Assembly: GCF_001625215.2 (NCBI RefSeq)
Contig: NC_030381.2
Coordinates: 35,338,689 to 35,402,688 of the forward strand
Direction: 5' to 3'
Length of the DNA stretch: 64,000 bases
From: Daucus carota subsp. sativus
Taxonomy: Eukaryota > Streptophyta > Magnoliopsida > Apiales > Apiaceae
Shown here: positions 2,444 through 63,928 of the stretch, in pieces
Position numbering within the stretch: the stretch's first letter is position 1
Layout: each line of letters starts with the position of its first letter
Notes under the pieces: generated by a model
What the model saw: only the letters and a program-made list of their open reading frames with translations
Told to the model about the DNA's origin: nothing
The model's database searches: none
Translations under genes and position numbers: made by a program

Positions 2444-3760
2444 CACAACACCAATTCTGGCCAATTACAACGGATATCTTACGACGGAAAGGCGGAGCGC
2501 AAAATTTACGACGGAAAACCACTATTCATCATAAATTCTCGTCAATACTTACGACGTACCAACATTCTGTCCAATGATTCGCTAGAATTCAGGCGCGACC
2601 TAATAAAATATAATAAATCTTTTCCCGCGAAAGAAACCGTCGTAAGTTAACATATCTACCTAATTAAAGACAAAAAAATAAATAAAAATAAAATGGTTTC
2701 TAGTTTTCGTCGTAACTACGCCGTCGTAAGTTCCAATAATTATATAATTATAGCTCTTAAAAAAGGAAAATAAATAAGAAAGATAAGTTTTAATTTTTCG
2801 TCGTAATTTAACCGTCGTAAGTTAACATATCTACCTAATTAAAGACAAAAAATAGATTAAAATAAAATGGTTATGGTTTTCGTTTCCGTCGTAATTATGC
2901 CGTCGTAAGTTCATATAATTATATAATTATATATGTATTAAAAAAGGAAGATAAATGAGTATGATAAGTTTTAATTTTTCGTCGTAATTCAAACGTCGTA
3001 AGTTAACATATCTACCTAATTAAAGACAAAAAATAAATGATAATAACATGGTTTTCGTTTTTGTCGTAATTATGCCGTCGTAAGTTCATATAATTATATA
3101 ATTATATCTGCTTTAAAAAAAGTAAAATAAATGAGAATTATAAGTTTTAATTTTCCGTTGTAAGTTAACATATCTACCTAATTAAAGACAAAAAATAAAT
3201 GAAAATAAAAATTGTTTTATTTTCCGTCGTAATTCTGTTGTCGTAAGTCCATATAATTATATATTTATATCTGTTTAAAAACGGAAAATAAATGAGAATG
3301 ATAAATTTTATTTTTCTGTCGTAATTAAATCGTCGTAAGTTAACATATTTAACTAATTAAAGACAAATATAAATGAAAATAAAATAATTTTCTTTTCTGT
3401 CGGAATTACGCCGTCGTAAGTTCATATAATTATATATTTATATCTGTTTAAAAACAAAAAAAAATGAGAATGATAAATTTTATTTTTTCGTCGTAATTAA
3501 ACCGTCGTAAGTTAACATATTTAGCTAATTAAAGACAAAAAACAAAATGAAAATAAAATGGTTAGGTAAAATTGAGCAGTAGGGTCCACGTGGTTGACTT
3601 TACAACGGAAGTGATAACTTGCGACACAATTTAAAATACCGACCATTTATTTAAATTCTGAAGCCAGGGAAAACGACGGAAACGTTCCGTCGTAAATGAT
3701 ACTAATTACGACGGAAAAAATGAAAAAATTTCGTCGTAAATAGCCAAAATTGTTGTAGTG
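2444..3760. mobile_element. Non-autonomous CACTA (En/Spm) transposon with subterminal repeats
   Basis: The right end reads, on the minus strand, CACTACAACAATTTTGGC and the left end reads CACAACACCAATTCTGGCC, a matched pair of CACTA-type terminal repeats. Both ends are flanked by TTA (2441-2443 and 3761-3763), the 3-bp target duplication expected of this superfamily. Internally the motif TACGACGG or its complement CCGTCGTAA recurs many times. A block containing GTTAACATATCTACCTAATT appears six times (near 2646, 2821, 3002, 3164, 3339 and 3511), a spacing of 162-181 bases. No transposase coding is present, so it would move only with help from an autonomous relative. Confidence 0.85.
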
Positions 3761-13004: not shown

Positions 13005-13308
13005 AATATTATATGATAATGCATTTTTATGAGTGTTTTTAGTATTTGAAAAATACTTGAAAAATACCAATAGACTCCACATTTGTAGACTTGTAGTACC
13101 AAAAGGAGAGTACGAAACCAAAAAATATAACTAAAAACTTGGATTACAAATTATACCCAATATTATATGATAATGTATTGTTAGGAGTATTTTTAGTATT
13201 TGAAACTGTTTATAATACCAATATACTCCACATTTGTAGACTTGTAGTACCAAAAGGAGAGTACCAAACCAAAAAATATAACTAAAAACTTGGACTACAA
13301 ATTATACA
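13005..13308. repeat. Tandem duplication of a 154-bp unit
   Basis: Copy 1 (13005-13158) and copy 2 (13159-13308) both start AATATTATATGATAAT and share a long near-identical part including CACATTTGTAGACTTGTAG and ACTAAAAACTTGGA. They differ by scattered substitutions. Non-coding. Confidence 0.85.
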
Positions 13309-22130: not shown

Positions 22131-22488
22131 GTATCTTAACTTTGTTTTAAATGAAAAATGACGATGGTTACAAGAAGGAAGTGTGTAGAAAAATAGGCTT
22201 TTCTGTTTTTGGTACATGTAATCTTCGTAAACTCTTCAGTTGATTGATTGTATATATGATCTTTAAGGAAGTAGGTTTATCTAGTGAAGTGTGTTTCCCT
22301 ATGGATTTCAATTACGTTCTTCCATCCCAGCAATTTCTTGCCCACTAATTATTCTTCAGGTCTTATTATTGTTTTCCTCTCAGTTTTTCACCCCTTTTCA
22401 TTGGGGGTGCGGAGATGATCATTCTTTGTTGCTGATTCCTTGTTTGTACTCAGATTGCATATTCAAATTCAGCTGGTAACTTGAGCGA

Positions 22489-24306
22489 ATGCATGCATCT
22501 AAGAAATATAACGCACTGATGCAAAGTGCAACAGTGATATCCATTTCCGACAGCTATCTGAACTCCATTGAACTAAAGTTCCGCAATAGACATTCTACAA
22601 ATGCTAAAGATAGTTGGGCAAGAAGAAGTTTATATTCACTATATGAATGTATTCCCGGGGTCATGAATCCTCAATGTAAAACAGTTGGGATCTTGAGTAG
22701 CGTCTTCATCTTCTTCTTTCTATTAGCATTTTTGATACGAACTTTATTAATCTTTTCGCATCATGCGGAGAAGGATAGAAATTGCATAGTTGATAGCAGT
22801 CACATGGGAACTGCATTGTCTACTATGATAGACCTGACCAAAGTCAGTTTCATTTTGTACATAATTTTAATGTTTAGAGTGGCTTACGTTGATCCGAAAT
22901 CTAGAGTCTTTGTATACGACTCAAAGAAAGTAGCTCTTAATTATCTATCTGGCTACTTTATTGTCGACTTGTTTTTGGTGGTTCCACTTGCCCAAGTCAT
23001 TGTACGGTGGGTGATACTTCGAACAACCAGCTTCTCTTATGGGCCAATTGAGGTAGTATATTTCTTGCAGTATATGGCCGTGCTATGTAGACTTCTGTCT
23101 ATGCTTGCCAATCAGTCTACAAACGCCTTGGTATTTAAGTCATGGTTGTCTAAATTTGTTATAAATCTTCTGGCATTTTTTCTTTTTAGTCATGTGGTCG
23201 GGTCATTTTGGTATTACTTTGCCTTGAATAGGGTAGCCTACTGTCTTCGAAATGCTTGTGGTGAGAATTGGTGCTTAATGTATGTATCTTGTGAGCGTAG
23301 ATATGAGAATGAGAATTTTGTAAAGGACTCACCATCATTCAAAAACTGGAAGAACAACAACAATGCCACGGCTTGTTTTGGTCCAAGCGGTTACAAATAT
23401 GGAATTTATGTGGAAGCTGTCAGCCTAGCTCAAGAATCTAATCTACCAATGAGATACATCTATTCACTGTTTTGGGGGTTCCAGCAAATTAGTACTTTAG
23501 CTGGAAACCAAACACCAGCTTTCTTTGTGGTAGAAGTTCTCTTCACTATGTTCATTACTGCTACAGGTCTTTTGCTCTTCTCTCTTCTCATTGGAAATAT
23601 ACAGAGCTTTCTCCATGCTCTGGGACGCAGGAGTTTAGAAAAGTCTATGAGGGGTCTGGACGTTGAGCATTGGATGAGCCATCGACGATTGCCAGAAAAA
23701 CTTAAAAGGCAAATCCGTAAATCAGAAAGATACAACTGGCTTGCCACCAGAGGCGTGAATGAATTATTATTATTAGAGAATCTACCTGAAGACCTTCAAA
23801 GAAATATACGCCGACATCTCTTCAAATTTGTGGAAAGCATCCCAATCTTTGATACGATGGATGAATCCATCTTAGATACAATTAAGGAAAGACTTAAACA
23901 GAAAACATATATCAAAGGAAGGAAGCTAATGGTTTCTGGAGGTCTTTTTGATAAGTTGGTTTTTATAGTTCAGGGGAAGCTTGAGAGCATTGGAGAAGGT
24001 AGTAGCAGTGTAGTTTCATTTTCTGAAGGAGATGTTTGTGGCGAAGAACTTGTTACAGTGTGCCTAGAACATTCTATTATGAAAAGAAATGGAGAGGATT
24101 TTAGGATTCCAGCACAGAAGTTGCTAAGCAAGAGGACAGTAAGATGCTTAACAGATGTAGAAGCATTTACTCTCGGAGCTGCTGACCTGGAGGAAGTGTT
24201 CAGATTCTACTCTGGGCTCCTGATCAGAAATCCTCATGTTAAAGGTGTAATTAGGAAGCAATGTCCTCCTCATAGGCAGGGTCTTACGCGAAGAAAATCA
24301 TTTTAA
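22489..24306 (+). CDS. Cyclic nucleotide-gated channel, CNGC19/20-like (group IVa), intronless
   Basis: A single open frame of 605 residues. Order: short N-terminus; PGVMNPQCKTVG before S1; TM segments from residue ~65 to ~240; a Cys-rich S5-pore loop with NACGENWC; pore helix and filter FWGFQQISTLAGNQTP (328-343), the AGNQ filter of CNGC19/20-type channels; S6 to ~373; C-linker with LDVEHWMSHRRLPEKLKRQI and RYNWLATRGVNE; CNB domain ~450-570 with the phosphate-binding cassette FSEGDVCGEELV (511-522). Plant CNGCs are plasma-membrane cation (Ca2+) channels in immunity and development. Odd points: relatives are split by many introns, the N-terminus is about 150 residues shorter, and the usual C-terminal IQ/calmodulin region after the CNBD is missing. 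This suggests a retroposed copy. ATG at 22489 is the first in frame. Confidence 0.85.
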   Translation: MHASKKYNALMQSATVISISDSYLNSIELKFRNRHSTNAKDSWARRSLYSLYECIPGVMNPQCKTVGILSSVFIFFFLLAFLIRTLLIFSHHAEKDRNCIVDSSHMGTALSTMIDLTKVSFILYIILMFRVAYVDPKSRVFVYDSKKVALNYLSGYFIVDLFLVVPLAQVIVRWVILRTTSFSYGPIEVVYFLQYMAVLCRLLSMLANQSTNALVFKSWLSKFVINLLAFFLFSHVVGSFWYYFALNRVAYCLRNACGENWCLMYVSCERRYENENFVKDSPSFKNWKNNNNATACFGPSGYKYGIYVEAVSLAQESNLPMRYIYSLFWGFQQISTLAGNQTPAFFVVEVLFTMFITATGLLLFSLLIGNIQSFLHALGRRSLEKSMRGLDVEHWMSHRRLPEKLKRQIRKSERYNWLATRGVNELLLLENLPEDLQRNIRRHLFKFVESIPIFDTMDESILDTIKERLKQKTYIKGRKLMVSGGLFDKLVFIVQGKLESIGEGSSSVVSFSEGDVCGEELVTVCLEHSIMKRNGEDFRIPAQKLLSKRTVRCLTDVEAFTLGAADLEEVFRFYSGLLIRNPHVKGVIRKQCPPHRQGLTRRKSF

Positions 24307-27990: not shown

Positions 27991-29695
27991 TTAAAATTGC
28001 TTTAAAAACTGGTAGATATGGTTGTTGATCTCATCTGGCTTTTCTTCATTGATGAAGTGGGCAGTTCCTTCCATTACAACTACTTCCTGCAGCAATGGAA
28101 CATATTTCTGGAACTCGCCCTTGTGTATAAAATCCTTGGCGCCAGGCATATTGTAAACCAAGTCGAATTCGCCAACAATATGTTTTGCCGGTACCATTAC
28201 CTGAGCTCCGGTCCAAGGCGCGGTAAGTTCCCATGTCCTGCAGCCAAGCATTTAACGGTTTTTAATTAGTTGCTACATATCCGTAATATATTTACATTAC
28301 ACTTGCTAGGATATTGTTGGAATGGTCATAGAGAGACATTACTTACGAGTCAAAAGCTCGGTAATAATTGAGAGGACCAGTAAAGCCGGTTTGCTCGTAC
28401 TTGGTGGAATAATAGTTGAGATCATCTTCGGATAACCAAGATGGCAGGGGAGAATCTGTAGAGTCTCCATTGAAACCCTTCCCCTTAGGGAAGAACCATG
28501 GAGCAGGATCACGGTGTGACAAAAATTTCTTCAAAAATGTTTTTGTACCGATATTATTTGCGATTTCGGCTTCCATACCCCCCGGTTCCTGCAACATGAC
28601 ATGTTAAGGTTTTTAAACACGAGCTATATCTTGGTAATGAATTAGTTATAGAATCTTTGCATATTAGAAATACAATAAAATTTCAAATTCCGCCCCGATT
28701 TGTTTTTCCAATTTTTTTTTTCAAATTATGAAATGATTATGTTAATCAAATAATTTATATGCATAAGAATCTCATTATATTAGTGTTCGTGGAAACAATA
28801 TATATTATTACCTAAAATCTGTGAACAATTTTTGGGTATCAAAATATTTTCATCATGATGCTCACAAAAAAATCTGAACATACAAAAATGGAAAGTTTAT
28901 AAATCTTTATATATTTAAAATAGGAAAGTTTATAAATTTATATATCTTGCCAAGTGGATCTCATCTCTGAATATGGAAACACAAAAGGTAGGTAACGTAT
29001 AACATAGATGAAAAATACACAAATGTCGCTCTACCACTCGTTTTCAAAGAGTACATTCATCTCAAAACAATCAACATGAGATTGTCCGCCCAAATTAAAC
29101 TAAATCGCTCGAGCTAAATCTCAAAATTTCAATGTCTTATTATTATCCGAAAAGAGAATCTACATTGGTTTTAAACCGCAACAAAGTAAACTATGATATG
29201 ACAAGAGTGATGATGACTAACCTGGAATCTAACCATGTAATGATCCTCCCCATACAAAGCTTTCATTGCATCAATGACTTTAAAATCCGGATTCCTCGGC
29301 AAATAATGAATACTCAAGCTCACCAAAGCCTTCACTTTATCCGGCCTAAACAAACTCAAATGCCACGCAATATACGCACCCCAGTCATGCGCCACCACAA
29401 ACACCTTCTCCTTCGGCGCCACCACGTCCAGCAACGCCACCAGGTCGCCGACGACATACGGCACGCTGAACTTGGACGGGTCATCGAGTGGGGCCCCCGT
29501 GGTGTCTCCGTAGCCACGGAGATCAGGCGCCACCGCGCGGTAGCCGTGGGAGGCGAGGAAATGGATCTGGTGGCGCCAGGAGTACCAGAGCTTGGGGAAG
29601 CCGTGGATGAAGAGGACGGTGGGGCCCTGGCCCTTTTCGGCTACGTGGATGTTGAGGCCATTGGCGCTGATCGTTCTGTGCTCAATGCCTTCCAT
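27991..29695 (-). CDS. Soluble epoxide hydrolase (alpha/beta-hydrolase)
   Basis: Three exons, 29222-29695, 28347-28588 and 27991-28237, join in phase to 320 residues, the usual length for plant soluble epoxide hydrolases. They hydrolyse fatty-acid and other epoxides to diols, e.g. in cutin monomer and oxylipin metabolism. Visible features: oxyanion loop HGFP (31-34), nucleophile Asp104 in VAHDWGAYIAW, lid tyrosines Tyr153 (GEDHYMVRFQ) and Tyr234 (GPLNYYRAF), acid Asp264 (EFDLVYNMPG) and base His299 (EGTAHFINEE). The residue before His-Asp-Trp is Ala rather than the common Gly. No peroxisomal targeting tail is evident (ends LKQF), so probably cytosolic. Exon 1 is notably GC-rich against its surroundings. 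Two extra copies of exon 3 lie downstream (26.9 and 20.7 kb). Confidence 0.95.
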
Positions 29696-29775
29696 GTTTG
29701 ACTTAAAAGTGAGCTTTTTTAGTATTATTTTGTGGGCGCAAGGCAGTGGTGAACAAGAGATAACAGGTGGTTAAT

Positions 29776-34038: not shown

Positions 34039-36750
34039 TTAAACTTTCATCATTCCGGGGTCATAAGGGATGCCAGCAACCGGAATCCATGCATCACCCT
34101 GGAAGAAACTCGCAGCAGTGAATTGGGAAATAACTTGTGGAGATACATTCTTTTGGACACCTTTCCATGTCACTCTCTTCGAGGTGTCCGATCCGGGTCC
34201 TCGGTTCTGATACTCAACATAATAGCAAGTGTCCTGTCCGAAATTACCTGTCCATGGAGACCATCCATCGGGAGCAATATTCGAGTCGATAAAAGATTGC
34301 ATCACAATTGTCCTCGAAAATTCTTTCCATGGACGACCCAAATAGGATTTGATGGGAGGATTTGCTTGCATGAATGCTGGCTCAGCTGTAATTTGGCAGT
34401 TCTGAAGTATATTTCCACCAGTGGATCTGCGATCTTTCCTGCCTTGTGCTGTCACCATGCAACCCTGATTATCCATTGGCTTTCTCACAATCATTTTGCA
34501 GTTTTGAAAAATAGCAGCAGCATCACCGAAGATGAAGTCAATTGTTCCTGTGATTGTGCAGTCGCGATAAAATTGACGGTAGGTGTGGGTGTAGAGGGTG
34601 TCTTGATAACCATCCATTTGGCACTGGAAGAAAATAGCTCTGTCACCAGATACTCGCAAAGCAACGGCCTGATGTTTAGCAGCTCCTGCTGAGTTCTCGA
34701 AGCCCATGTCCTTGGCCATGAAGCCATCACCATTTATAGCTAGACATAAGAGGTAAAATATAGATATTCAATTATTTGCATGCAAATTGATGCACAAAGA
34801 TGAATATTATGGTGCAAAAGGTTTACTAGTATATAATATCGTACCAAATGTTGCAGTTTTGAAAGTATTGACTCCATCGATGAAGTTTTTGTTCCCTGTG
34901 ACTTTGGTCTTAGTTGCCCCTTCACCCATCATGACAATATTGTTTGTACCCCTTGGAATATCAACATACTCTTTATAAACACCAGCCTTGACAAGTATAA
35001 CAAAGGCCTTGACATTATTGGCTGGGACTGTCTTGATGGCGTCACTGATAGTTTTGAATTGTCCAGATCCATCAAGAGCAACGACTGCATTTGGTTTTGG
35101 ATTAGCTTGAAGGAGACTTCTTTGGTGTTTGCCTGCCCATTCAGGAAGATCATCTGTGCCGCCGACTTTACGAGCTTTTGATATTTGCTCTGCATCGTGC
35201 ATTAGATTATTTCCATTACCGCTTGCTTTACCGACTTTTGTCATTTTTTTTGAATCATTCCCATTGTCGCTTTGAGATTCATTATCATTATCAAAGACTC
35301 TGCGCACTGTGGCCGCTGCTCCCTGACCGGGATCCTCGGCAAGAGAATGCTCGTTTGGAGGCCCATAAGCAGCATCATAGAGTCTGCGCGTTCCTGCTGA
35401 GAATCCTGTATCCTCATTTGGAGGTGGATCTCCGTGTGGGGTCTCATCGTCATAATCCAAGAGTCCGCGTTTGTGGTTTCTTACATTGAACGGAATCCCG
35501 GGATCCTCATTTGGAGGTGGATCGCCTTGTGGGGTCTCATTGTCATAATCCAAGAGTCCGCGTTTGTGATTTCTTGCATTATACGGAGTTCCGGGATCCT
35601 CATTTGGAGGTGGATCGCCGTGTGGGGTCTCATAGTCATAATCCAAGAGTCTGCGTTTGTGATTTCCTGCACTAAACAGAACCCCGGGATCCTCATTTGG
35701 AGGTGGATCGCCTTGTGGGGTCTCATTGTCATAATCCAAGAGTCCGCGTTTGTGATTTCTTACATTATACGGAGTTCCGGGATCCTCATTTGGAGGTGGA
35801 TCGCCGTGTGGGGTCTCATAGTCATAATCCAAGAGTCTGCGTTTGTGATTTCCTGCATTAAACGGAACCCCGGGATCCTCATTTGGAGGTGGATCGCCTT
35901 GTGGGGTCTCATTGTCATAATCCAAGAGTCTGCGTTTGTGACTTTTTGCGGTATACGGACCTCCGGGATCCTCATTTGGAGGTGGATCACCGTGTGGGGT
36001 CTCATAGTCATAATCCAAGAGTCTGCGTTTGTGAGTTCCTGCATTGGCCTGACTTGCAGGATCCTCATTTGGAGGTGGATCGCCTTGTGGGCCTTGTGGG
36101 GTCTCATAGTCATAATCAAAGAGTCTCCTGTGAATTCCTGGAATATGTAAAGATGAAACAATGGACTTGATGTCACTCATCATGGCAAGGGCATTGCTTG
36201 ATAGTTCATTAGAAATTTTCAATAAATTTTTCATTTTATCCGCAGCATCACCAGTTGTATTTTCAAAAGCATCAATACAAGTCTCTTGATAATCTATAGC
36301 ACCGGTAAGCCATGTCTTGACATCCAAAACATACTCCTCCATCTTGCTAGCCTCTAATTGTCCAACCCTGTCCACAGATCTGTTAAGATCCTTAACTGAT
36401 GTATCTAATAACTCCTTACACAGTTCATACGCTTTCTGAGTACGCGGGTCCTTAGACGCATCTTCAAGAGTTTTGGACTTCCCTATAGCGTCACCAATGT
36501 TACTGATGGCCGCTTTAAAGCCTGTCTTCATAAGCTCTTTCGGATCTTCAGAGTCTGATGTGGAGAGGCTTTTAACACATGTGTCCTTATAATCAACTGC
36601 TTCACACATGACGTTAACAGCTTTGTTTGAGGTGGTAACTTGACCATCATGATGGTTACCTTTGTTTAGAGTCACGGCCACCGCAACCGCCACCGCTACC
36701 AGGACTACCGAAGATACTCCTATCATCGTCACCGCTTTAGACAATCCCAT
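34039..36750 (-). CDS. Pectin methylesterase 1 with PMEI-like pro-region and amplified repeat linker
   Basis: Two exons, 34845-36750 and 34039-34739, in phase: 868 residues against ~550-590 for relatives. It removes methyl esters from cell-wall homogalacturonan. Order: signal anchor (residues ~8-28), PMEI-like pro-domain (~45-200) with its four Cys, repeat linker (207-~495), PME domain from VVALDGSGQFKTI to GMMKV. Catalytic residues all present: Gln659 (HQAVAL), Gln681-Asp682 (YQDTLY), Asp703 (GTIDFIFGD), Arg771 (YLGRPW). The linker replaces the short RRLL-type S1P processing site of group-2 PMEs with seven ~31-residue units plus weaker ones. Each core unit begins HKRRLL or HKRGLL, continues DYDxETP, and then PPPNED. 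The linker is rich in Asp, Pro and Tyr and probably disordered. Tandem paralogues lie at 40.3 and 43.5 kb. The frame runs through all repeats without a stop, so it is likely functional. Confidence 0.92.
35389..36132 (-). repeat. 93-bp coding minisatellite in PME 1
   Basis: Residues 207-454. Core units start at residues 240, 271, 302, 333, 364, 395 (31 residues, 93 bases each) and 426 (29 residues); a longer first unit at 207 and two degenerate ones at 455 and 483 flank them. Units alternate between a DYDYETPH form and a DYDNETPQ form, so the higher-order period is 186 bases; the last full unit has DYDDETPH. The DYDYETPH units keep RRLL, while later DYDN/DYDD units have RGLL. Every change in length is a multiple of three. 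Growth by unequal exchange of a two-unit block fits the pattern. Confidence 0.95.
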
Positions 36751-40290: not shown

Positions 40291-42037
40291 TTAAACTTTC
40301 ATCATTCCGTTTTCGATAGGGACGTTGGTAGCCGGCACCCAAGTATCACCTTGGATGAACTTGACAGCAGTGAACTGTTGAATATCTTGATCATTCATAT
40401 TTTTTATGATACCTGGCCAATTGACTCTCTTCGAGGTGTCGGATCCGGGTCCTCTGTTCTGGTACTCGAGGAAATAGCAAGTTTTTTGACCGAAATCACC
40501 TGTCCAGGGTGACCATCCTTCGGGAGCAATGATGGCATCGATGTTTGATTGCATGATAATTGTCCTGGAGAATTCTTTCCAGGGGCGGCCTAGATAGTTC
40601 TTTGTGGCAGGAGGGAGTCCTGGCTCCCCGGTTATCGTGCAATTCTGAAGGACATTTCCACCAGTGGAACGCTGATCGATCCGGCCTTGTGCGGTCACCA
40701 TGCAGCCTTGGTTGTCCAGTGGCTTCCTCACTACCATCTTGCAGTTCTGGAAGACGGAGGCGGAGTCACCAAAGATGAAATCAATTGTGCCGGTAATTGT
40801 GGTGTCACGGTAGTATTGGCGGTAGTTGTGATTGTAAAGGGTGTCCTGATAACCGTCTATTTGGCATTGGAAGACAACAGCCCTGTCACTGGATAATCTG
40901 AGTGCCACGGCTTGATGTTTCTCGGCTCCTGCTGAGTTCTCAAAGCCTATGTCTTTAGCCATGAACGCGTCACCATCCACACCTACATAGTAAAATTTTA
41001 AGGAGATCAATTTATATGTATTTATAAGAAATTGCGTTGAATCATTGCATGCATGTGAATATAAACGCACCGACTGTTGCAGTTTCAAAGGTCTTGACTC
41101 CATCGATGAAGTTCTTGCTCCCTGTGATTTTGGTCTTGGTTGCGCCCTCACCAATCAACACAACATTGTCTGTGTGCCTTGGAATTCTCACAATCTCGTT
41201 ATACACACCAGCCTTCACTTGGATAACAAAGGGCTTAGCATTGTTGGCCGGGACTGTGGCAATGGCTTCTCCAACCGTCTTGAACTGTCCAGAGCCATCT
41301 TGAGCAACGACCGCGTTGGGTGCAGCTGCAGCTTGAAGAAGGTGTCTTTGATGCGTAGTTATCCAATCAGGAATCTCATCATCCACACTAGATAGTCTCC
41401 TCTGGCCTAGAGACTTAAGGTCTACGGATTTCAAAATATTCGTGAGCTCAGTGACCATCGCAAGGGCATTGCTGGATAGTGCATGAGACATTTTCAACAA
41501 ATTCTTCACTTTATCTGCAGCATCCCCGGTTGTATTCTGGAAAGCATCAATGCAAGTCTCTTGATTGTTCAAAGCACCGCTAAGCCAGGTCTTAAGATCC
41601 GCAATTAATTTATTCAAATTACCCGCATCAACTTTACCAACCTTGTCCATTGATCTGTTAAAATCATCCACTGAGGTCTCCAACAATTTCTTACAAAGTT
41701 CATATCCCTTTTTGGTACTTTCATCCTTAGAGGCATCTTCAAGAGTTTTGGACTTAGAAACCACGTCGCCAATTTCCTTAGTGGCGGCCTTAAAGCCCGT
41801 CTTAATGAGTTCCCTAGGATCCTCTGTGTTGGCTTCAGAAAGACTCTTGACACAAGCATCCTTGTAGTCAGTTGGCTGACACAACGAATTCACGGCCTTG
41901 TTAGAGGTGTGTACAGTCTGGCCACCACCCTTTTCGTCGCCACCATCACTGCTTTGGGTGAGGGCTACAGCAACCACCACAGCAACCAGGACTACCGAAG
42001 ATAGACCAATAACAGTTATCTTTTTCGACAATCCCAT
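40291..42037 (-). CDS. Pectin methylesterase 2 with PMEI-like pro-region (group 2)
   Basis: Two exons, 41071-42037 and 40291-40982, in phase, 552 residues, normal for the family. Signal anchor at ~8-27, PMEI-like pro-domain with conserved Cys, processing region with GQRRLSSVDDEIPDW and HQRHLLQAAAAPN, then the PME domain. Catalytic Gln346 (KHQAVAL), Asp369 (YQDTLY), Asp390 (GTIDFIFGD) and Arg455 (YLGRPW) are present, so it should be an active, secreted pectin methylesterase. It is the closest paralogue of PME 1 (both start MGLSK, share the same intron position and very similar pro-regions), and shows the unexpanded linker from which the PME 1 array presumably grew. The last residues are GMMKV, as in PME 1. 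Confidence 0.96.
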
Positions 42038-43516: not shown

Positions 43517-45481
43517 TCAGCTGCTGGCGTCTGGGGAAGGGGCGGGGGAGGGGGTTGCAGCGCTTGTGGTGGCGGCCATACTATAGGGGATACCGGTAGA
43601 AGGAATCCAATCATCTCCCTTGAGGAAAACTTTAGGACTATAGGTATTAGCTTCTGCAGAAGTAATGTTCTTAACACTAGGCCATTGTACCCTTTTAGAA
43701 ACATTTGCACCAGGGCCTTTGTTTCCAAACTCCACAATGTAGGCTGTCATGTTATTTGGATTTTTCTCTTCCCAAATTTGCCATCCCAATGGATTGATAA
43801 AAGATTCAATGAATGAATCGATGATCACCATTTTGGAGAAGGATTTCCAGGGGCGGCCCAGGAATGATTGGATCGTAGGACTGGCAAGTACATCAGCTTC
43901 TGCTGTAATAGTACAGTTTTGTACTACGATTCCTGTGATGTCGTCAACAAATTCTCGGCCTTGGGCTACAATCACACAGTCCTGGCCAGCTGCTGGTTTT
44001 CTGGCAACTATTTTGCAACTTTGAAAGACAACCACTGAGTCTCCGAAGATGAAATCAATAGTGCCTGAGATGGTGCACTCCCGATAGAATTGTCTGTAAT
44101 CATGAGTGTAAAGAGTGTCTTGGAAACCATCCATACGGCAGTTGTAGAATATTGATTTATCTGCTGCCACGTGAAGGGCCACTGCTGGACCTTCATCTGC
44201 AGCTGCTGTGTTCTCGAATGAAATTCCCTTTGCTATGAAGTTGAATCCACTTACTCCTGTATATTCATATATAAGTAAACACCAAGAGTTCAGAGTCAAA
44301 TGACAATTCCAGTAACTGGAAATTAAGCACTTACATGACTGATTTAAGGTGTCTCAGTAAACTGTTCCGTAAAATTTAATATTCTGACCTTAGCCATACA
44401 AGGGACTTAGCTGACATAAGGCCAGATCAAGAAACAAAAAAGATGGATGAAGCATCTATTTTCTTATGGAGCAATGTGACTTACCAACAGTTGCAGTCTC
44501 CAATGTGGGGAAGCCTTTCTTCTGAGATCTGTCACCGATGATCTTAGTCTTTTTGGGGCCATCTCCAACCAACATCACGTTAGTCATGAACTTATCAAGT
44601 CTAACAATCTCTCTATATTCACCGCTCTTAATGTATATAATAAACATGTTCTGATTGTTTTGTGGAATCAATTTAATAGCCTCATTAATGGTCTTAACTT
44701 TCCCAGAACCATCTTGAGCTACAATAACATTAGCCATGCGTTTAGCATTGTCACCTTTGAGGAGTTCTTTGTTGTGATCCTTCACCCAAGCAGGAAATTG
44801 GTCTGCCCCTGGAACTTGTAAGAGCTTTCGCGCATTCCCTGTCACCTGCAGATCTGCCAACTCTCGGCTTAATTCATCAACCATATTAAAACCGTTGATG
44901 GTCAGCTCACGAGAGAGCTGCAATAGTTTTGTCATTTTTTCTGCTGCATCTCCGCTTGTTTCCCTGAAAGCATCCAAACAAGTCCCTTGAGCCGTATTGG
45001 CAGCAGAGAGCCATACTTTGAGATCAAAAAGATATCCTTGTATATCATTTACATCAATACTAAAATCATTTATTTTATTGAAAGATCTCTTTAAATCATC
45101 AATAGCTGATTGAAGGACTTGCTGACAGACTTTATAAGCCCCAGATGTTCTGGGATCATTCTCCGCTGCCTGTAATGTTGATGAATTCTTGAGTGAGCCC
45201 TGGATATGTTGCATCGCATAATCAAACCCGGCCTTAATCAAATCTCTGGGGTCAGTAGTATTCATCGCGGCAGGGAGGAGTGTCTGCTCACAAGTGTCCT
45301 TGTATTGAGTAGGCCTGCAAATTGATTGCACAGCTTTCTGTGATTCAGCTACATGATTTTTTTTGGCCTCATCTGCATCCTTGTTACTGTGCTGAAGATC
45401 TACGACCACCGCTCCAATAACCAAACCTACAAGGAGGATTGAAGACAGAGTAACAACAGTAACTTTTTTGTTCAAAGCCAT
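43517..45481 (-). CDS. Pectin methylesterase 3 with PMEI-like pro-region and Pro-rich tail; oxyanion Gln replaced
   Basis: Two exons, 44485-45481 and 43517-44256, in phase, 578 residues. Signal anchor (~8-28), PMEI-like pro-domain, a processing site NARKLLQVPGADQFPAW, then the PME domain from VIVAQDGSGKVKTI. Present: Gln378-Asp379 (FQDTLYTH), Asp400 (GTIDFIFGD) and the Arg of FLGRPW. Missing: the oxyanion-hole Gln of the QAVAL motif; here the text is EGPAVAL, with Pro356 in the Gln position (22 residues before Gln378, the standard spacing). It also has a C-terminal extension after the usual end, TTSAATPSPAPSPDASS, of the arabinogalactan/extensin-like type. More distant from PME 1 and PME 2 than they are from each other. 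Reduced activity is possible. Confidence 0.93.
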
Positions 45482-46428: not shown

Positions 46429-49400
46429 TCAATCCTCATCCACAGCTAAAGGAATCATCTTCACCTGTAATACAAAAAAAAAAAGAAAAAGAAATTATAT
46501 GCAATCTGTTACAAGTCACAACCAGTAAGAACTTGCTGTATGTTCATTCGCTTGCTTCCATGTGTTAAGACTTGACCCTTAAATGAAAAATGGGTATGAT
46601 GTAAGATATTATATTAATGTTGTGTTTGGTTGGGCTGAATGAATTCGAAATGAACTGAATAAAATTTGAACATAGATAGTTGTTCAGAAATTTCATTCTT
46701 CGCCCACTTCATTCCTTACACACAATACTAGAAATGGAATGGAATGCAAAAATAAGTGACTGGTAAGTAAGTGTAAAAAGTAAAACTAGCTTATAAGAGT
46801 TAATTCTCAAGAAGTATATATGTGAAGTGACTTCTTTAAAATTTGTAATTAATATACACAAAACTATATTAGCAACACCACATGCAACTTATATACGTGA
46901 AGTGACTTCTTTTAAGTTTGTAATTAATATACACAAAACTATACATATACAACTTTTAATGATCTTTATTTTCTGTAACTTTTAAGTTATATATATTATC
47001 ATCAATTTAAATTATCCAGACGAAAAATAACTTTTGCGTTGCTACTTGAAAAAAATAATAGCAATAAGTAACTTTCTTGAGATAAGACCCACGGACCTAA
47101 GAATTAGTGACTGTTTATTAAATTACTTGCACTTACTACAAACTTTTGGGAGAACTAACCTGATCACTATACTTTGTAGCGTAGAACATCTCCAAATATC
47201 GTCGATTCTCTAGCCTGTCAAGCTTTGTTACATGTTTCCAGAACCCATAAACCCCAGCTAATGACAGAAGCCTCTCTGAGTATATCTTCCAAGTGTACCT
47301 GCACATATAATTTAGATATGGGGGCAGAATTATGTAAAATTGTTTGACCACATTTAAAGCAAAACATCATACTTTTGATGGATGCGTGCAAGTGCTCCAT
47401 CAGATATTTGATTCCAGTAGCTCTGATCTCTCTGGGTCCGTTCAAAAAAGTTGACCAAATTGATTGTAACCTGCTCAGGGTGATAGGGATCAATGTGGAA
47501 TCCAGATATGCCATGCTCTATAATTTCTGCAGGACCTCCGTGAAGGGTAGCAAAGGTAGGGAGACCGCAAGTCATTGCCTCCACAACTGTGAGCCCAAAA
47601 GCTTCATAGAAAGCAGGCTGAAAAGAATGTGTGAATCAAATAATGAGACTATGTACTTACAGAAGGCATGTAAAGTACTTAAATAATTTTTACCTGAACA
47701 AAGACACCTTTTGTATCTGCAATGTAACGGTAAAGTTCACCATTACGAGCTCGATTCATCTGTGCAGTTATCCATCGAAATTGCCCATTTAGGTTGTACT
47801 TGTTCATTAGACCATGCATCTTCTCAATCTCAGTGATCTCTTCTCTATCCTTTGATTGTTTTATATCGATGTAGCCACCAACTACAACGAGATTTGCTAG
47901 TTCTCTTAGCCTTGTATCTTTACCATAAGACTCAACTAGCCCAGTCAGGTTTTTCACTTTATCCAATCTTGCCATGGAAAAGATAATGGGCTTTGATGGA
48001 TTACTCAGCATACCACTGCATATAATATAGACAAAGTATCAGCAAAAATGACCTCTGTAACAAGAAACCTTAATAGTTAAATTCCTCAAAACCCTCCATA
48101 TATGGAAAGTTGTAAATGGCATCTGCAATGCAGCCCAATGGACCAGGCCCAGCCCAACAGCCAAGTAACCAAGCAGTACTAATTGCTTACAGTAGACTTC
48201 GTGCAGGGGCAAGAAGAGAAATTCCGACAGAGAAGGGGTTAAGTGGGGGAACAGAGAGGAAAAAGAGGGCATTGAGAGTTTTGTTTTGCATACACTTAAT
48301 AAGGGTTCTAGGAGTGAGAGGCTACTCGAAAGTCCTCATTTATCTGTCTTTAGATTCCGTTCTATTGTATTTCCCGTTTGTAAGCAACAATTGAAGTCCA
48401 GTGTAGAATTTTGTGGGTTCCATCATGTTTCAATTAAATAAGTATTCCTTCCTACTTCCTAGTATATATTGTAATATATATAATGTAGCCAAAAAAATCA
48501 GGAAAATTATGGCACCAAACAACCCATAGGAGAAAAGAGAGTAATTTTGGAATCATGTCTATAGTGCTCGGAATGCAACAAGCTTAACAAAACTCCAATG
48601 TCTTCTTCCATGAAAGCCACTTGGCAATACTTCTAGTCTCGTAGAACAATGATCAATCCCATTATGGTCATTATACAAAAATAAGATTTTGAAATTCAAT
48701 TAGCAATAAAACAAAAGCTGGAGTTCACACCCTGACCTAACAGGATGCTTTGAATGTTGAATGAGCAAGAACCATGATCAAGTGAATGTTTATAAGATAC
48801 ACCAGAATGTGTGAAAAATCTTAAAGCAACATTAACATGTAAATATAGATTTAGCACAAAAAACCAGTAAAAACACACAGAAATGAGAAACTTACATATG
48901 TTCATTGCTCTGCTCTGGATCATATAACAGCTTTTCAATCGCGCCATGTAATGCAGTAAGTCTCATATCCTTTTCTGTGTATGAGAAGTAAATGCTCATA
49001 TCTGCTCCAGGAGAGACGATATTGAACTTGGGATCAAACACATTAATGCCATGAACTACACGATACAGCCCAGGCAGAGTGAAGCCTGTGTAACTCTCAT
49101 ACTGTCCAACACAGTTTTTGCTGAAATAGTGGGAAAATGTTAAAGTGTGTATATGCATAGATTCTACAAAACACTATATTCTCATAAGCTTAAAAAGGTG
49201 AGAATCGAAGAGTTTTACTAATTTTTATGAGCTTGTTCACTCAGCTTCAACACAATAACAGTAGTTAATCATGTGGAAGTATATGCAATATACATTAGTA
49301 AGAAATACTTTTGAAACAGAATATTAAGGAAAAAAAAAACTAAAATGAGAATCTTATTCTAGGAAAGTACTTATGATCAGAAGATTGTCCCTCCTGTAAC

Positions 49401-63628: not shown

Positions 63629-63891
63629 CAGTGGCGGAGCCGGAGTTTATTATCAGGGAGAGCCAAAATATGCTGAAAAATATTCCCTCATAAGTGAAAA
63701 TGAGGAAGGGCCAAAATATGTTTGAAAAAAGTGATAACATAAGAAATCGAACATGACTCTTAGAAAAATTATACTATAACTAATATCACGTGATCTACAT
63801 ATCACAAAAGGTTATTGTACAAGAAATAATTATAGAAATTTCAGAGAGGGCCCGGGCAGGTCCTGGGCCCAATGTGGCTCCGCGAGTGCGT
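63629..63891. mobile_element. hAT-like MITE (CAGTGGCGGAGCC ends)
   Basis: Left end CAGTGGCGGAGCCGGAGTTT; the right end reads TGGCTCCGCGAGTG, an altered complement. This GGCGGAGCC..GGCTCCGCC pairing is typical of a common plant hAT MITE group. The right end is duplicated in tandem. Confidence 0.6.
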
Positions 63892-63928
63892 GGCAGGTCC
63901 TGGGCCCAATGTGGCTCCGCGAGTGCGT
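63855..63928. repeat. Perfect 37-bp tandem duplication
   Basis: Two identical copies (63855-63891, 63892-63928), each GGCAGGTCCTGGGCCCAATG continuing through GGCTCCGCGAGTGCGT. Doubles the right end of the MITE. Confidence 0.92.

Follow-up and report, generated by a model that had tools for sequence, protein, structure and literature searches.

The window, the whole 64-kb stretch of DNA that was analysed, holds three PMEI–PME genes with introns, all on the minus strand, which together form a tandem PME cluster. From this gene content the DNA is taken to be of plant origin. Gene A, the member with a repeat-bearing linker, was modelled as a spliced frame with one intron, and its product is 868 amino acids long. 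The features of gene A, apart from the linker, are as follows.

34039..36750, minus strand: gene A, type-I pectin methylesterase (PME) with repeat linker (splice model, Pfam; 1gq8 nearest structure)
34845-36750, minus strand: gene A exon 1
34740-34844, minus strand: gene A intron, 105 nt, GT-AG
34039-34739, minus strand: gene A exon 2, including the stop codon
36664..36729, minus strand: hydrophobic N-terminal segment, either a signal anchor or a signal peptide, residues 8-29 approximately (by eye; a low-confidence model has helix 2-29)
36181..36621, minus strand: PMEI-like pro-domain, residues 44-190 (Pfam)
34845..35091, minus strand: PME catalytic domain, exon 1 part, from residue 554 (Pfam)
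34093..34739, minus strand: PME catalytic domain, exon 2 part, to residue 851 (Pfam and signature scan)

For the splice model, donor 34844 was preferred because the resulting junction, TATFAINGDGF, resembles TATVGVDGDAF of paralogue B; an alternative in-frame donor at 34826 is possible and would add six junction residues that are absent from the paralogues. Matches to PF04043 (PMEI; E 5.9e-30) and PF01095 (Pectinesterase, residues 554-851; E 1.2e-133) were both above the Pfam cut-offs. All five of the usual PME signature motifs were found in the catalytic domain by signature scan (GVYKE, QAVALR, QDTL, DFIFG and LGRPW), the last four of them in its exon 2 part. Among solved structures, two PMEs come closest, 1gq8 of carrot and 1xg2 of tomato. 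Gene A is apparently an intact type-I PME. A pseudogene was ruled out, as the frame is intact, the signatures are present, and both domains show purifying dN/dS values against paralogue B. A frame artefact within the record was likewise rejected, with units that are multiples of three and a clean splice model, although the copy number may be misassembled.

Several other features were recorded elsewhere in the window. A tandem array at 2634-3559, made of 5.3 copies at period 175 and having a sub-period of 88 nt, appears non-coding by eye, a 151-nt repeat occurs twice at 13005-13307 with 90% matches, and a perfect 37-nt repeat, G+C-rich by eye, occurs twice at 63855-63928. Protein-coding sequence comprises a partial alpha/beta hydrolase gene at 29174-29770 on the minus strand (PF00561, E 2.4e-22) and an exon of a glycosyltransferase-1 protein at 47682-48038 on the minus strand (PF00534, E 8e-07), which by eye we take to be sucrose-synthase-like. 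An open frame of 608 residues at 22480-24303 on the plus strand matched no Pfam family above the cut-off.

Ten repeat units make up the array in the linker of gene A, eight of them good and two degenerate. A repeat array between the PMEI and catalytic domains had been proposed in the initial annotation, and it proved real, flanked as it is by the Pfam matches at residues 44-190 and 554-851. The coordinates first given for it, 35389-36132, take in units 1 to 8, but the degenerate units run on to about 35266.

36034..36132, minus strand: unit 1, HRRLFDYDYETP, 33 amino acids, HRRLF|DYDYETP(QGP)QGDPPPNEDP..., with an in-frame three-residue PQG duplication
35476..36033, minus strand: units 2-7, six of 31 residues (93 nt) each, HKR[RG]LL|DYD[YN]ETP[HQ]GDPPPNEDPG plus a variable tail
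35392..35475, minus strand: unit 8, shorter, HKRGLL|DYDDETPHGDPPPNEDTGFSAG, nearest to RRLSSVDDEIP of the paralogue
35308..35391, minus strand: degenerate unit 9, TRRLY|DAAYGPPNEHSLAEDPG... (RRLYDAAYG)
35266..35307, minus strand: degenerate unit 10, VRRVF|DNDNES..., low end approximate
35110..35157, minus strand: retained ancestral linker end, DDLPEWAGKHQRSLL, with cleavage motif 2 adjoining the enzyme (aligned with paralogues B and C)

The core consensus is HKR[RG]LL-DYD[YND]ETP[HQ]GDPPPNEDPG; unit 8, whose end reads PNEDTG, supplies DYDDETP as a third core variant besides DYDYETP and DYDNETP. With Tandem Repeats Finder, the array was detected at 35410-36091 with a period of 93 (7.3 copies, 88% matches, score 1042) and, with a higher score of 1161, with a period of 186 (3.7 copies, 93% matches). 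Y/H-type and N/Q-type units follow each other in turn, which gives a higher-order repeat of two units, or 62 residues. As the longer period scores higher and the unit types alternate, the last amplification was probably that of a two-unit block. Further reading frames across the array are also open, among them an antisense ORF of 238 amino acids, so the openness of the array proves nothing alone; the case for coding is made by the domains on either side, by the splice model and by the paralogues. When 86 residues of the array, almost three units, were searched against PDB sequences, none of 177,635 matched at E <=10, and a scan of viral contigs with part of gene A exon 1 (547 amino acids) gave two pattern matches and no relatives.

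Gaps of 3.5 and 6.8 kb separate gene A from the two other PMEs of the cluster.

40291..42037, minus strand: paralogue B, type-I PME, 552 amino acids, exons 41071-42037 and 40291-40982, unrepeated linker RRLSSVDDEIPDWITTHQRHLLQ
43517..45481, minus strand: paralogue C, type-I PME, about 578 amino acids, exon 1 44485-45481, exon 2 probably 43517-44256 (four splice models leave its sites ambiguous), linker RKLLQVPGADQFPAWVKDHNKELLK

At its end, paralogue C carries a tail rich in Ser, Pro and Ala, ATTSAATPSPAPSPDASS, which is absent from A and B. The one-intron model of gene A is like those of its two paralogues. Both paralogues have a short linker with a basic motif at each end and without repeats, QRRLSSVDDEIPDWITTHQRHLLQ for B and ARKLLQVPGADQFPAWVKDHNKELLK for C; the PMEI and PME Pfam matches are separated by 46 residues in B (194 and 241), by 59 in C (191 and 251) and by 363 in A (190 and 554). 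In gene A the linker begins with HRRLFDYDYETP and finishes with DDLPEWAGKHQRSLLQ, the array lying between. The finishing end, DDLPEWAGKHQRSLL, aligns with DDEIPDWITTHQRHLL of B and ADQFPAWVKDHNKELL of C, so that motif 2 (HQRSLL) is retained adjoining the catalytic domain. Automatic alignment supported this second end but set the RRL of B against unit 9 of A rather than unit 1, which can happen where a single site is faced with many copies; that the first linker end of A corresponds to the first end of the paralogues is our own reading of the sequences.

The relation of the units to the paralogue linker was examined by comparison with shuffled sequences, a correspondence that rests on 11 residues. 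RGLLDYDDETP of unit 8 is identical to RRLSSVDDEIP of paralogue B at 6 of 11 positions, a score reached by 0.4% of 5,000 shuffles of positions 4-11. For units 1-7 the corresponding figure was 1-2% of shuffles, whereas units 9 and 10 (39% and 17%) were no better than shuffled sequence. The array thus looks like an amplified cleavage motif 1 together with its acidic DDExP stretch. Tyr is absent at the equivalent place in both B and C and was therefore probably gained in gene A.

Gene A is similar to other type-I (group 2) PMEs, such as AtPME17 and those of flax, which have a PMEI pro-region and RRLL/RKLL motifs, in domain order, in PME signatures and in having a motif at both ends of the linker. 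It is unlike them in having motif-1-like sites ten times over, each followed by Asp, and in linker length, with a Pfam gap of 363 residues as opposed to the 33-residue linker of AtPME17 (PMC11371470, available portion). According to the accessible part of a survey of flax, two motifs are present in 19 of 60 type-I PMEs, one in 25 and none in 13, and a novel motif 2 tetrapeptide occurs in 3 of the 60 (PMC4008260). In Nicotiana benthamiana, the available text describes RRLL, RKLL, RVLL or RTLL in 8 of 8 processed PMEs, and four unprocessed PMEs without basic residues at this place, except one with RALL (PMC11494411). The pro-regions of type-I PMEs are reported to be rich in intragenic repeats (PMC11462849), and repeat growth there is therefore unsurprising as such.

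For identification of candidate cleavage sites, the pattern R-x-[LVI]-[LFYSTKAM] was run over residues 190-560 of gene A, and 11 RxLx/RxVx sites were found, ten in the array and RSLL outside it. The array sites are RRLF, four RRLL, three RGLL, RRLY and RRVF, the last fitting the RxVx extension only; units 1-8 account for the four RRLL, the three RGLL and the RRLF. Asp stands directly after each of the ten, and eight go on as Asp-Tyr-Asp. At the edge of the enzyme, HQRSLLQ has RSLL followed by Gln, at residue 544, and the chain of 1gq8 would start at approximately this RSLL|Q bond (its residue 6 aligns five residues downstream). Use of the stricter flax-paper motif, [RKQ][RKEHLN][LDMI][LMAKR], left four matches between the domains, all of them array RRLL, with RGLL, RRLF, RRLY, RRVF and RSLL unmatched over residues 190-560. 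The site scan and Pfam together agree with the original description of a PME pro-form with S1P-type RxLx sites between its two domains, and the array scan also bore out that Asp precedes Tyr at every DYD. Five distinguishable unit types (1, 2-7, 8, 9 and 10) all keep Arg, Leu or Val, then Leu, Phe or Tyr, and Asp, a retention that mildly favours function.

The enzymes that cut at such sites have been described in other precursors. In the part of PMC13082318 that was available, S1P/SBT6.1 cuts RALF23 as RRIL|A, a change of RRIL to GGIL abolishes cutting, RxxL/RxLx is common to SBT3.5 and SBT6.1, and SBT3.8 cuts CLEL6 between Met and Asp-Tyr (VVM|DY). Since S1P cuts after RRIL and SBT3.8 before Asp-Tyr, the candidate RRLL|DY fits both cut positions. 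The array sites would therefore unite both kinds of signal, S1P-type and Asp-Tyr, at one bond, which is a matter of anatomy and not proof of cutting, and the array as a whole fits multi-site cutting by S1P-type subtilases. It differs from these substrates in two respects, as far as the available portions of the sources go: the SBT6.1 sites in RALF23 and the two in CLEL6 lack an Asp directly after the cut (PMC13082318), and those of CLEL6 lie well upstream of the peptide (PMC7162652).

Divergence was then compared between the paralogues and among the units. Between A and B, dN and dS are 0.25 and 1.18 for the PMEI domain and 0.17 and 0.98 for the PME domain; with dN/dS at about 0.2, the domains of both genes look kept as working proteins, although a pairwise ratio says nothing of the branch. 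Within the array, the variable nucleotides among units 2-7 number 4 out of 69 in the core and 13 out of 24 in the tail (Fisher p 1.3e-6; units 1, 8, 9 and 10 excluded). Over units 2-8, with unit 1 excluded for its 9-nt insertion and units 9 and 10 as not alignable throughout, pS and pN were 0.056 and 0.039 in the core and 0.457 and 0.369 in the tail, the tail values being inflated by the unit-8 tail, which is a boundary. The corresponding pN/pS ratios are 0.70 and 0.81, and fourfold sites, very few in number, are variable at 1 of 9 in the core and 1 of 3 in the tail. Because silent sites in the core are about as unchanged as replacement sites, the likeness of the units is no sign of peptide selection. 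By these values the array is young or homogenised, and the contrast between core and tail, alike for silent and replacement changes, points to homogenisation or history rather than protein-level constraint. The notion that unit likeness proves peptide selection was rejected for this reason; with so few silent changes, the comparison neither supports nor contradicts a functional meaning of the conserved DYD cores.

AlphaFold2 was run on gene A exon 1 (635 residues) with a three-sequence alignment. In the resulting model, which has low overall confidence (mean pLDDT 40), the pro-domain is helical and residues 201-536 contain no helix or strand, with block pLDDT values of 24-37; this prediction agrees with a disordered linker. 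As computed from sequence, array residues 207-456 carry a net charge of -23 with a pI of 4.7, and the PME domain has a pI of 9.1.

The account of these data that we prefer, with chances that we would put at about even, is a lineage-specific amplification of motif 1 (BM1) and its acidic D-D-E-x-P stretch, giving a cuttable, disordered linker in a working type-I PME. Sequence analysis supplied the gene structure, the domains, the sites, the likely origin and the recency of the repeats, and from these we infer cutting at array sites, the identity of the protease and fragments without an essential role. The linker would present up to ten RxLx or RxVx sites of the S1P/SBT3.5 type, with Asp after each presumed cut, and the ordinary second site (BM2) would adjoin the enzyme. 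Cutting in the Golgi at one or more array sites and at BM2 would be followed by shedding of the PMEI pro-region and secretion of an ordinary basic PME of 35 kDa, the array departing either in acidic pieces some 31 residues long or still joined to the pro-domain as its tail. Points against such cutting are the stricter flax motif, which fits the four RRLL only, the lack of Asp behind the SBT6.1 cuts of RALF23 and CLEL6, and the unprocessed N. benthamiana PME with RALL; against the proposed origin, units 9 and 10 match the paralogue linker no better than shuffles do.

An inert array, in which unequal crossing-over or slippage multiplied units of 93 and 186 nt and only BM2 matters, is a possibility that we take seriously while leaning against it. 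The 186-nt higher-order period, the near absence of silent divergence in the cores and the pN/pS ratios of core and tail are all as such neutral growth would leave them, and the coding sequence of type-I PME pro-regions is richer in intragenic repeats than that of the PME domain (PMC11462849). What speaks against it is the retention of site and Asp by five unit types despite their decay, which, with so few independent types, is only suggestive. The charges computed from sequence raise a further option, which seems to us very unlikely, namely that the acidic array binds the basic PME domain or slows secretion, so that the enzyme stays shut or within the Golgi until several cuts have been made. 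Removal of the pro-region is described, in the accessible part of PMC11494411 (citing Wolf 2009), as needed for activation and secretion, and a pI of 4.7 facing one of 9.1 would suit such a regulator; however, basic HKRR and acidic DYD patches alternate rather than forming a single acid tail, and a folded element is absent from the predicted structure.

The remaining explanation is that of the initial annotation, a sulfopeptide polyprotein, in which S1P-type cuts at each RRLL or RGLL, with Asp-dependent trimming, would release up to eight DYD peptides as signals; we hold this to be improbable. It is equally doubtful that the peptides are Tyr-sulfated, perhaps hydroxyproline-modified, and made together with the PME. 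CIF and PSK are plant tyrosine-sulfated peptides, and precursors of signalling peptides are not known to be enzymes. The units resemble PSY and RGF/CLEL sulfated peptides in the expected N-terminal Asp-Tyr, the Pro-rich continuation and the SBT6.1- and SBT3.8-type cut positions; cuts as known for S1P (RRIL|A) and SBT3.8 (VVM|DY) would put Asp-Tyr at the N terminus (PMC13082318, available part). For TPST to act, an Asp must precede the Tyr, and in the case of CLEL6 the sulfation step is placed in the Golgi, after SBT6.1 has cut (both from the accessible part of PMC7162652). This prerequisite is present at 12 of the 17 Tyr of the linker (residues 206-544), and 12 DY compare with a mean of 2.1 and a maximum of 9 in 2,000 shuffles, the units being copies of one another. 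Membership of the DY-led units in the PSY family was rejected: the motif DYxxxx[AP]NxxHxP (PMC7913133 and PMC11641228, as given in the available portions) is matched at none of the 14 DY sites of the gene A protein, N8 and H11 being missing in all 14. One unit type is weakly like PSY1 in the latter's second half (GDPP--PNEDPGVP aligned with GDPSANPKHDPGVP; P 0.003 by shuffling, and 0.009 when DY was kept), and a second and a third gave 0.005/0.017 and 0.08/0.20 (DY free/kept), from 3,000 shuffles each on three unit types, uncorrected. In the two better types, the PSY-like stretch does not keep register with DY, a point against the sulfopeptide reading, and we treat the likeness as a lead only. 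Signalling-peptide precursors are also of about 70-200 residues (PMC7913133, available text) against 868 in gene A.

Multi-copy precursors do exist. That of sweet potato HypSys reportedly gives six peptides, going by the title of a reference. Neither it nor the yeast alpha-factor precursor is known to have a large catalytic domain. Peptide activity is proven in both systems, whereas the peptides of gene A are putative. Yeast alpha-factor offers the precedent, with similar peptide units repeated in one precursor and change in copy number (PMC5850478, accessible portion), and gene A likewise has repeated units with candidate sites. Against the sulfopeptide reading, the likeness of the cores is accounted for by recency, units 9 and 10 no longer have Asp-Tyr although they keep R-R-hydrophobic-aromatic-D, and Tyr is missing from the equivalent place in the paralogues. 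A literature search, covering few subscription journals and main texts without supplements, recognised neither a repeated motif-1 array nor, also to the disadvantage of this reading, a sulfated PME linker; it found no paper on PME linkers that combine repeats with cleavage motifs, and of the unit peptide strings only PPPNED was retrieved, in the scanned text of a nursing journal of 1900. Of the sulfopeptide-array proposal, the pro-form, the S1P-type sites, Asp before Tyr and the location thus stand, while selection of the repeats as peptides gains no support. That the PME zymogen doubles as a multi-copy precursor, its activation by Golgi subtilases freeing up to eight singly or doubly sulfated DYD peptides, strikes us as unlikely. 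If it were true, pectin demethylesterification and a peptide signal would be produced in fixed ratio, and the composite RRLL|DY would be a site for S1P and for Asp-dependent subtilases alike.

If the linker is cut as its anatomy suggests, gene A would be a natural case of an enzyme-precursor processing site multiplied into a peptide array. Such multiplication would be a step by which a polyprotein hormone might arise, with pectin remodelling and peptide signalling linked in one gene. Even if the array is inert, gene A and its unrepeated tandem neighbours provide a clean comparison of cleavage-site number with PME activation and secretion.
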